Positions 1,221-45,255 of a stretch of DNA of 64,000 nt are shown one piece after another. Each line of letters opens with the position of its first letter. Position 1 is the first letter of the stretch. The notes beneath the pieces are model-generated. The model was not told where the DNA came from. It did not search any database and worked only from the letters and a program-made list of their open reading frames with translations. A program made the translations under genes and the position numbers. The stretch spans positions 186,001 through 250,000 of the forward strand of contig NZ_JANHAV010000002.1 in assembly GCF_024464655.1 (NCBI RefSeq), in the 5' to 3' direction. The DNA is from Halobellus inordinatus. Lineage in GTDB: Archaea; Halobacteriota; Halobacteria; Halobacteriales; Haloferacaceae.

Positions 1221-2156
1221 ATGCGTAATCTGACTGCCTTCGTCTTTCTGCTCGCGGCCGCCATCTGGGGCACCGCGTTTATGGTGACGAAGGCCGGCCT
1301 CGCGTGGATCCCGCCCGCTCTCTTTGCTGCGCTTCGCTTCGACCTGGCTGCGATCGTGCTCTTCGCGCTCGCGACGTGGCGCGGCGATCGGATCCGTCCC
1401 CACGGTGCGGAGTGGCGGCCGATTCTGACCGGCGGCGTTCTCCTCATCGGAATCCACCACGCGTTCTTGTTCTCCGGACAGGTGTACGTCGCGAGCGCTG
1501 TCGCAGCCGTCCTGCTCGGTCTCATCCCCGTCATCACGCCGACGCTGACGCGGCTGTCGTCGACGCGAGAGCGACTCACGCCGATCGGCGTTGTCGGGGT
1601 CGCGCTCGGCTTCATCGGCGTCGTCACCATCGCGAATCCGGATCCGGCCAACCTCGTCGGTGCGGACCTCCTCGGAGTGGTACTCGTGCTCGGTTCGGCG
1701 GTCACCTTCGCCGTCGGCGCAGTGCTCACGCACGACGCCGCCGACACGATGCCGATGCTGGCCGAACAGGCGTGGATGATGTTCGTCGGCGCGGTCGTCC
1801 TCCACGTGACGAGCGTCGTGCTGCCGTGGGAGTCGGCGGCCGACGTCGTCTGGTCGCTCGAAGCGGTCGTCTCGCTCGGCTACCTCGCCGTCGTCGCGGG
1901 CGCGGGCGGATTCGGCCTGTACTTCTGGCTGCTTCGTCGCGTCGGCCCCGTGGAGGTCAGTCTCTTAGAGTACGTCATTCCGATCTTCGCCGCCATCTCG
2001 GGGTGGATCGCGCTCGAGGAGCGACTCGCGCCGACGACCGTGCTGGGCTTTGCGATCATCTTCGTCGGGTTCGTACTCGTCAAGCGGACGACGATCCGGA
2101 ACGAACTCCGGCGGTGGCGAGACGGGACGACGCCGCAGGCGCAGCAGGCCGATTGA
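1221..2156 (+). CDS. EamA/DMT-family transporter
   Basis: An integral membrane protein of 311 residues with about ten hydrophobic segments arranged as two EamA repeats, the pattern of the drug/metabolite transporter superfamily. The first segment is LTAFVFLLAAAIWGTAFMVTK and a late loop carries EYVIPIFAAISGWIALEE, which resembles the second EamA signature. Substrate cannot be told from sequence; family members export amino acids, nucleotides or drugs. I start at the ATG at 1221 because upstream in-frame sequence is arginine-rich and non-membrane, unlike a real N-terminus. The neighbour downstream is convergent thpR. Confidence 0.88.
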   Translation: MRNLTAFVFLLAAAIWGTAFMVTKAGLAWIPPALFAALRFDLAAIVLFALATWRGDRIRPHGAEWRPILTGGVLLIGIHHAFLFSGQVYVASAVAAVLLGLIPVITPTLTRLSSTRERLTPIGVVGVALGFIGVVTIANPDPANLVGADLLGVVLVLGSAVTFAVGAVLTHDAADTMPMLAEQAWMMFVGAVVLHVTSVVLPWESAADVVWSLEAVVSLGYLAVVAGAGGFGLYFWLLRRVGPVEVSLLEYVIPIFAAISGWIALEERLAPTTVLGFAIIFVGFVLVKRTTIRNELRRWRDGTTPQAQQAD

Positions 2157-2159
2157 GCG

Positions 2160-2220
2160 CCGGTGATCGCCCAGCCCAGCAGCCGTGATTGTCCAGCCCA
2201 GCAGCCGGTGATCGCCCGGC
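2160..2220. repeat. Short imperfect tandem repeat of about 22 bp
   Basis: Two and a half copies of a 22-23 bp unit lie between the convergent EamA and thpR genes. Units begin at about 2160, 2183 and 2205 and share the core CCAGCCCAGCAGCC. The third copy is partial. It sits in the shared 3' region and may be simple slippage, with no clear stem-loop. Confidence 0.7.
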
Positions 2221-2237
2221 TGCGCAACGCCTCTCCC

Positions 2238-2798
2238 TCACAACGGGAATGCTTCGACCGTCTCGTACACCGGACCGTCGGAGCGCAGCGTGCTCTCTTT
2301 CAATCTGATCTCGTCGACGCGGAACGAGCCGATGTCCGGGTCCGTCTCGCGGACGACCCGCTGCACGAGGTCTTTCCCGCGCGCGTCGTCCATCCGCGCG
2401 ATGGTGATGTGCGGCGTGAAGTCGTGATCGTCCCCCTCGAACCCGAGCTCGGCCAGTTCGCGCTCGACGGCGCTCTGGAGTCGTCTCGTCTCCGCACCGC
2501 CGACACCCTCGCGGACGCCCGCCCAGACCACGCTGATGTAACTCTGTGACGGAAAGACGCCGAAGCCGCCGACCCGAAACTCGAAGGGGTCGACGTCGGC
2601 GTCGGCGACCGCGCGCTCCAGTGCTGCTTCGATCTCCTCGATGCGATCCGGGTCCGTCTCGCCGAGGAACTGGAGCGTCAGGTGGGCCTGCTCGGGGTCG
2701 ACGAAGCGGAGCCCCTCGGCGTCTGCGAACCGCTCTTGTGCGTCCGCGACGGCCGCCGCGAGCCGATCGGGAAGGTCGATGCTGACGAAGAGGCGCAT
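2238..2798 (-). CDS. thpR: RNA 2',3'-cyclic phosphodiesterase (2'-5' RNA ligase family)
   Basis: A 186-residue member of the 2H phosphoesterase superfamily. The two catalytic HxTx motifs are plain: HLTL at residues 39-42 and HITI at 130-133. The N-terminus MRLFVSIDLPD is the usual LigT/ThpR start. Characterised homologues open 2',3'-cyclic phosphates on RNA and can reversibly join tRNA half-molecules with a 2'-5' bond. It is cytosolic and has no obvious operon partner, being convergent with the EamA gene and divergent from acs1. Confidence 0.93.
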   Translation of the reverse strand: MRLFVSIDLPDRLAAAVADAQERFADAEGLRFVDPEQAHLTLQFLGETDPDRIEEIEAALERAVADADVDPFEFRVGGFGVFPSQSYISVVWAGVREGVGGAETRRLQSAVERELAELGFEGDDHDFTPHITIARMDDARGKDLVQRVVRETDPDIGSFRVDEIRLKESTLRSDGPVYETVEAFPL

Positions 2799-2961
2799 AC
2801 CTCGGCGTACGCGCTCGGCGATGAAAACGCTCCGCCCGCGAGTGAGATCACAGTGCTCCCGTTCGATTTTTGTTCAGATCGCGGACCGGATCGCGAATTT
2901 CGCCCGCTTCGACCGCCGCGAGCGGGAAACTTATGCCCGTACCGCCATCGAGAGAGACACG

Positions 2962-4890
<1,929 letters not shown>

Positions 4891-15921: not shown

Positions 15922-16006
15922 CTATATAGCGTTTGCACGTCTTCACGCACCTAATCGCACGCAGTCGTGCGATTGGCTGTGTAGTCAGTTGCAAACGCTA
16001 CTATAG
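15922..16006 (+). repeat. Palindromic element family A, copy 1
   Basis: An imperfect hairpin of about 85 bp in the 355-bp intergenic region 15738-16092. Outer stem GCGTTTGCA (from 15930) pairs with TGCAAACGC (ending 15999), and an inner stem uses AATCGCACG and CGTGCGATT. Between the stems the left strand carries GTCTTCACGCACC and the right GTAGTCAG. The same asymmetric layout appears at 41859 and 45174. It lies 86 bp before sufS and is oriented toward it. The rest of the gap shows only AT-rich promoter-like sequence. Confidence 0.85.
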
Positions 16007-41858: not shown

Positions 41859-41945
41859 CTGTAGTAGCGTTTGCACCTGATTGCACAGCCGATCGCACGG
41901 CTGCGTGCGAGTCGGTGCGTGAAGACTTGCAAACGCTACTGTAGC
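41859..41945 (-). repeat. Palindromic element family A, copy 2
   Basis: Same family as 15922 and 45174, here in reverse, oriented toward pno1. Outer stem on the minus strand is GCGTTTGCA with TGCAAACGC, and inner CTCGCACG pairs with CGTGCGA. Both loop segments, AAGTCTTCACGCACC and GCAATCAG, are conserved. It lies between the rio1 stop and the pno1 TATA region, about 64 bp from the pno1 ATG. Confidence 0.85.
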
Positions 41946-45104: not shown

Positions 45105-45173
45105 CTACAACGACTATTGTGGGCCACGAGTCTTGAAAGATTCTGCCGCGCGCTGTCGAATCGACTGCTGATA

Positions 45174-45255
45174 TCGTAGCATTTGCAAGTCTTCACGCAC
45201 CCGAGCAGACGCTGCGTGCGCTCGGGTGCGCAATCAGTTGCAAATGCGACTGTAG
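45174..45255 (+). repeat. Palindromic element family A, copy 3
   Basis: Same layout as copies 1 and 2, oriented toward ahcY, about 97 bp before its ATG. Here the outer stem is GCATTTGCA with TGCAAATGC: both strands changed relative to copies 1 and 2, keeping pairing. The inner stem is rewritten as CGCACCCGAGC with GCTCGGGTGCG. Conserved strands are AAGTCTTCACGCACC and GCAATCAGTTG. Confidence 0.85.

Follow-up and report, generated by a model that had tools for sequence, protein, structure and literature searches.

A palindromic repeat family with co-varying stems in Halobellus inordinatus and other haloarchaea is very probably a non-autonomous IS630-type MITE

Three structured palindromes in a 64,000-nucleotide stretch of the Halobellus inordinatus genome (the window) are very probably copies of a non-autonomous MITE of the IS630 (Tc1/mariner-related) family, here called family A. 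The element is 84 bp long and carries no gene, it is dispersed over 40 places in the genome, and it has terminal inverted repeats and a TA target duplication with a corresponding empty site. We assign it to the IS630 type because of its TATAGTA ends, the single TA of the empty site, a C-TA-G target and matches to IS630 ends over 29 bp. An earlier note on this DNA had left a structured RNA, a nucleoid or regulator site and a mobile palindrome side by side as possible identities; it is the last of these that is borne out, by dispersed near-identical copies, the TA target duplication and the IS630-like ends.

When the three sites of the earlier note were re-read and aligned, they proved to be copies of one 84-bp near-palindrome. 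A covariance model run on the window recovered exactly these three copies and no further one, and provided corrected bounds for each. At 83 bp, copies 1 and 3 are somewhat decayed forms of the 84-bp unit, and copy 2 lies on the minus strand. The three copies, and the parts of copy 1, are as follows.

15923 to 16005, plus strand: family A copy 1, 83 bp; the left TATAGTAG has lost one base
15923 to 15938, plus strand: left terminal inverted repeat and outer stem arm of copy 1, TATATAGCGTTTGCAC (from sequence, with pairing by folding)
15939 to 15951, plus strand: A-end subterminal block of copy 1, GTCTTCACGCACC, at the offset of the IS630 left-end CTTTYTACTCAG; putative transposase-binding site
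15953 to 15974, plus strand: inner hairpin of copy 1, AATCGCACG-CAGT-CGTGCGATT (from sequence and folding)
15975 to 15988, plus strand: B-end subterminal block of copy 1, reverse complement CTGACTACACAGCC, counterpart of the IS630 right-end RTARTTGCTCAC; candidate transposase-binding site
15989 to 16005, plus strand: right terminal inverted repeat and outer stem arm of copy 1, TTGCAAACGCTACTATA (from sequence)
41860 to 41943, minus strand: family A copy 2, 84 bp; its neighbours, a KH-domain gene and a gene for a RIO1 kinase, are also on the minus strand
45172 to 45254, plus strand: family A copy 3, 83 bp; GCATTTGCA stem subtype with a decayed left end

The neighbours of copy 1 are a universal stress protein and a class-V aminotransferase, and those of copy 3 are a helix-turn-helix gene (minus strand) and an S-adenosylhomocysteine hydrolase gene (plus strand). 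All three copies beat shuffled sequence in folding, whichever strand is folded (z about -5.5 to -7.8, with 0 of 200 shuffles as good). The stems and constant strands are also as they had been described. Copies 1 and 2 have the outer arms GCGTTTGCA/TGCAAACGC, for which copy 3 has GCATTTGCA/TGCAAATGC, both strands having changed; GTCTTCACGCACC is the same in all three copies, reverse-complemented in copy 2, and the strand facing it is near-constant, reading GTAGTCAG or GCAATCAG.

Across the family, the 84-bp unit includes the TA at both ends and has the layout TATAGTAGCGTTTGCAA - GTCTTCACTCAC - inner hairpin TCGCACG/CGTGCGA - reverse complement of CTGATTGCGCAC - TTGCAAACGCTACTATA. Each end occupies about 29 bp and consists of TATAGTA, a variable stretch, T-N-N-A-A and a subterminal block, which is not the same at the A end as at the B end. 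The terminal inverted repeats form 17-bp arms, and 95.1% of outer-stem cells pair. In a second type, which occurs for example in Natrinema and Halomontanus, the arms read TATAGTAGCCACTGAAA or TATAGTAGCAACTGAAA and the subterminal blocks are GTCATTGCACAC and CGATTTACACAC. This type too is 84 bp long, with the inner hairpin shifted by one base; mismatches in the inner stem of this type are only apparent and reflect that displacement. The model does not create the constant length: 84 bp was also the result when 400 kb of each of two genomes were scanned for TATAGTA-type ends paired at distances of 36-1500 bp. This was the spacing of 12 of the 18 pairs in H. inordinatus, where the others were neighbouring, nested or decayed copies, and of all seven pairs in the other genome. 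A length of 84 bp is close to eight turns of B-DNA, which is a matter of arithmetic and no evidence of mechanism. Two variants of other lengths were observed. One is a 217-bp version with both ends intact (L094, about 1483-1699; L259, 12982-13198), in which an insert of about 130 bp with short inverted ends of its own (GAGTGAT...) sits at the hairpin tip; the other is a 54-bp mini version (L099, 809-862) with both arms (TACAGTAGCGTTTGCAAGCG...) and almost no interior.

The searches that the earlier note had called for, within the genome and across genomes, both returned many copies. Copy 1 matches 40 distinct places in the 3.4-Mb H. inordinatus genome, and the three window copies are therefore not a product of chance; 22 of the 40 are 90-100% identical, with flanks that are all different. 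Family A is present in 15 of the 40 nearest relatives. Across the order, a model based on 45 copies detected it in 89 of the 243 genomes sampled and in 33 of the 74 genera; a genome with the element often had at least 18 scored candidates. It is also found on plasmids, with 28 places on pHME505 of Haloferax mediterranei and further plasmid records in Halobellus, Halorubrum, Haloplanus, Natrinema, Haloarcula and others. The copies are dispersed and their positions are not conserved.

The clearest view of an insertion is provided by copy L009, which sits within a repeat of a different family. In this genome the host repeat also exists without the insertion (L197, L201 and L202), reading CCTCATA/GATTTC with a single TA, and the occupied junctions of L009 are TA on the left and TG, one change from TA, on the right. 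As the empty copies show one TA, the L009 site gained the element together with one TA and later underwent one change. This repeat-in-repeat insertion is the single clean case; when joined flanks were compared to relatives, most intergenic flanks were too diverged at the junction. Where TA is present on both sides of a copy, the base before it is C in 57 of 78 and the base after it is G in 56 of 78, and haloarchaeal IS630 elements likewise have C before the TA (56 of 69 and 63 of 76 ends). The host of L009 is a second small palindromic repeat of H. inordinatus, TAGGGATTATCGTAAGTCCTCATAGATTTCTCGCCGGACGGTACGGCGAGAATCTCCGAACAGTTACGATAATCCCTA (L009, L024, L026, L027, L098, L196, L197, L201 and L202), which is itself found inserted in family A copies, at L098 with what looks like a duplication of 3 bp (TGA).

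These junctions bear on two other readings of the family. Conserved blocks, and copies that are nearly all intergenic by a rough gene caller, could be expected if selection, and not transposition, had spread a fixed site for a regulator, for the nucleoid or for replication. However, near-identical copies occur in unrelated places and nested in another repeat, with a TA duplication, aligned sites of relatives lack the element, and the copies decay evenly (see below). Such a site is extremely unlikely, and the regulator or nucleoid option of the earlier note is contradicted by the occupied and empty sites. Being short, palindromic and mostly intergenic, with GTAG near the hairpin foot, family A also resembles the REP-like or PATE-like palindromes moved by a single-strand Y1/TnpA (IS200/IS605) transposase. 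We regard this origin as highly improbable, because true terminal inverted repeats, flanking TAs and a single-TA empty site are not of the IS605 type, and PATEs are described without inverted terminal repeats or target duplications (PMC3119063), both of which family A has.

Further support for the IS630 assignment is provided by the ends themselves. In a comparison set of 80 loci from haloarchaeal genomes, IS630 ends consist of TATAGTA, 4-5 variable bases, TTAGAA and a subterminal block that reads CTTTYTACTCAG at left ends and RTARTTGCTCAC at right ends, and both family A subterminal blocks (GTCTTCAC... and CTGATTGC...) share their offset with the IS630 subterminal blocks. All 18 family A ends tested match some IS630 end better than their own shuffles do over positions 8-29 (p <0.0002 to 0.027). 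The best match, in the closest type, extends to 17 of 22 positions beyond TATAGTA, or 24 of 29 overall, and the Halobaculum-type ends show a moderate similarity of 13-14 of 22. A position-specific score was restricted to positions 18-29, which had played no part in choosing the IS ends; Halobaculum-type ends scored against the IS630 right-end profile at p about 0.001-0.003, and the A end of the second type at p about 0.0001. Since they match the IS630 subterminal ends in both position and sequence, the strands GTCTTCAC and CTGATTGC, which the earlier note had read as the fixed loops of a structure, are probably transposase-binding sites.

The haloarchaeal IS630 elements (about 1059 bp, with a two-frame transposase; L104-L183) resemble family A in their TATAGTA ends, their C-TA-G target and their subterminal blocks, which differ between left and right and have the same offsets as in family A. 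They differ in that family A has no gene and reads TGCAA or TGAAA where IS630 has TAGAA (positions 14-15), and in that family A has arms complementary over some 17 bp, while the two IS630 ends differ from each other at positions 8-12. The two frames of the IS630 transposase meet at an A-rich stretch, KKSGG / KKRREMDATVV (L069, L070 and L080), an arrangement that suggests programmed frameshifting.

No intact IS630 element with the exact family A repeats was found in the H. inordinatus genome and its genus (DDE_3 search) or among the 80 IS630 loci, and 800 kb scanned without similarity bias contained no full-length autonomous element with these repeats. Candidates for such a parent in the H. inordinatus genome, from an inverted-repeat search and from lone ends, turned out to be truncated, nested and neighbouring copies. 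The IS630 content of this genome comprises one 3' fragment of the matching end type (L081) and a different IS630 clade. Across the sampled genomes, a close IS630 is absent from 62 of the 89 that bear the element; the association is modest, with a close IS630 in 27 of 89 element-bearing genomes vs 23 of 154 others (Fisher p = 0.005, no phylogenetic correction). In Haloquadratum walsbyi, some MITEs move without an intact partner transposase in the genome (PMC3119063). Two other IS630 contexts were observed along the way. In Natrarchaeobius chitinivorans an IS630 adjoins remnants resembling related elements, including TATAGTAGCCACTGGAAGTCAATGCACACCTAATCGCACG (L146, 1029-1190). At L090 a CRISPR-like array whose repeat contains TTTCAGACGGACCCCTTGTGGGGTCGAAG (1-2100) is directly followed by a different-clade IS630 (2117-3138), about 44% identical to the element-type transposase and with other ends.

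We then consider the pairing of the arms. A covariation check of the kind proposed in the earlier note, run on 45 sequences, gave 45 double-changed cells compared with 15.9 +/- 3.2 in shuffles. Overall 90.9% of cells pair, and the covariation score is 0.167, against 0.107 +/- 0.006 for shuffles and at most 0.061 for slid versions. Several arm types differ by single compensated changes (CGTTTGC/CATTTGC, CGTTTGC/CGTCTGC and CGTTTGC/CGCTTGC; CCACTGA/CAACTGA, CCACTGA/CCGCTGA and CCACTGA/CCATTGA), indicating that the covariation is not one inherited event, and compensatory stem changes recur across lineages. Nor can recognition by a transposase alone explain the complementary arms, as the left and right ends within single IS630 elements agree in 37, 18, 60, 43 and 72% at positions 8-12. 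Pairing is not absolute, since some lineages with the mismatched outer arms GCCACTGCAA/ACAACTGCAA still spread. The earlier note had seen in this pattern selection on a structure; the covariation is upheld, but the idea that an RNA is selected for at every site finds no support.

The evidence on this last point comes from 20 recently dispersed copies, in which the number of new variants per site is 0.27 for outer and inner stem alike and 0.38 for the subterminal blocks. The 12 outer-stem changes in these copies are all one-sided and none is compensated, although the numbers are small. Wobble pairs in the outer stem comprise 24 G-U and 21 A-C cells, indicating that neither strand is favoured there. 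On the A-to-B strand of the main-type inner stem there are 58 G-U vs 13 A-C cells, and 34 of the 58 fall in columns 30 and 31. As evidence for RNA we set this strand-specific G-U excess aside, since the outer stem has none and the inner excess lies mostly in two columns that look inherited. Orientation shows no bias relative to tandem genes (the same in 15 of 33 copies), and neither does gene context: by a rough GC3-based gene caller, one of 77 copies lies in a predicted gene and the others in 32 tandem, 22 convergent, 19 divergent and three unresolved gaps. Even decay, the lack of bias in orientation and context, and the absence of a G-U preference in the outer stem argue against a functional RNA at each locus, and selection on RNA at each site is not borne out. 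A structured RNA family whose copies are transcribed, with the hairpin acting in the cell, for example as small RNA, as stabiliser of an mRNA or as processing site, would draw on the strong fold, on covariation in excess of shuffles and slid controls, on the inner-stem G-U excess and on window copy 2, which might be co-transcribed with its two neighbours, both genes on the same strand. Against the findings above, the dispersed and non-conserved positions of the copies and the lack of an Rfam match in the window, we consider it improbable.

In the mechanism that we propose for family A as an IS630-type MITE, a putative IS630-type transposase, present or past, would act in trans and bind the terminal repeat and subterminal block of each end, cut the element out and join it to a TA, preferably within C-TA-G. 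An inserted copy would then decay like neutral DNA, and arm pairing and the 84-bp length would be properties of the lineages that keep jumping. Pairing may have either of two causes, correction of one arm from the other at replication or a structural requirement of transposition. We slightly favour arm-from-arm correction (hairpin template switching) together with a constraint that DNA geometry places on synapsis of ends just 84 bp apart, and consider selection on an RNA hairpin less likely as the cause. That family A is an IS630-type element cut down to some eight helical turns, whose arm complementarity and 84-bp spacing are needed for mobility, through phasing of the ends or through a hairpin or cruciform intermediate, is a tentative suggestion on our part.

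A related possibility is a MITE in which the hairpin is itself selected in the jumping lineage, for RNA cleavage or as a DNA cruciform, so that a Correia-like element has an added structural function. Consistent with this, the arms have stayed complementary through at least six single-pair changes, though IS630 ends need not match there, the inner hairpin of the second type has been re-registered by one base with the total still at 84, and RNase III acts on those Correia elements whose ends are symmetrical (PMC2649163). Yet lineages with mismatched arms spread, arm-to-arm correction would yield the same pattern without selection, and the stem is not kept in recent copies. A selected hairpin is conceivable, but we think it rather unlikely.

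Palindromic MITEs with TATAG ends and a target duplication are already known. The Correia repeat enclosed elements of Neisseria are, like family A, small multicopy palindromic MITEs with a TATAG start, a target duplication and a hairpin (PMC2649163); beyond TATAG the sequences are unrelated, and Correia elements are most commonly 104-108 or 153-157 bp long vs a nearly constant 84 bp for family A. ISY100, an IS630/Tc1-mariner element of Synechocystis, has 24-bp imperfect repeats that are bound along their whole length, and about 24-30 bp of each end suffices for its transposition (PMC2170065). It shares the TA target duplication, and its need for about 30 bp of end fits the 29 bp per end of family A, although ISY100 is autonomous and bacterial and has other end sequences. 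The MITEs, PATEs and SMRs of Haloquadratum walsbyi are likewise small transposase-free mobile elements of a haloarchaeon (PMC3119063). The main text of that study makes no mention of IS630, and as the comparison is by description, one of these elements may be identical in sequence to family A. We found no description of family A in the open-access literature; a prior name is possible, as that search covered open-access papers.

Overall these results indicate that strong stem covariation, often taken as evidence of a functional RNA, can arise in dispersed mobile DNA with individual copies that seem free to decay. This calls for caution in RNA discovery based on covariation. If arm complementarity and spacing are indeed needed for mobility, family A would be a structure-dependent MITE in dozens of haloarchaeal genera, and transposition, not the host, would select its co-varying stems. 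Family A is present in roughly a third of the sampled haloarchaeal genomes, including that of the cultured Haloferax mediterranei, and the copies in this species make the role of the 84-bp length and paired arms testable.
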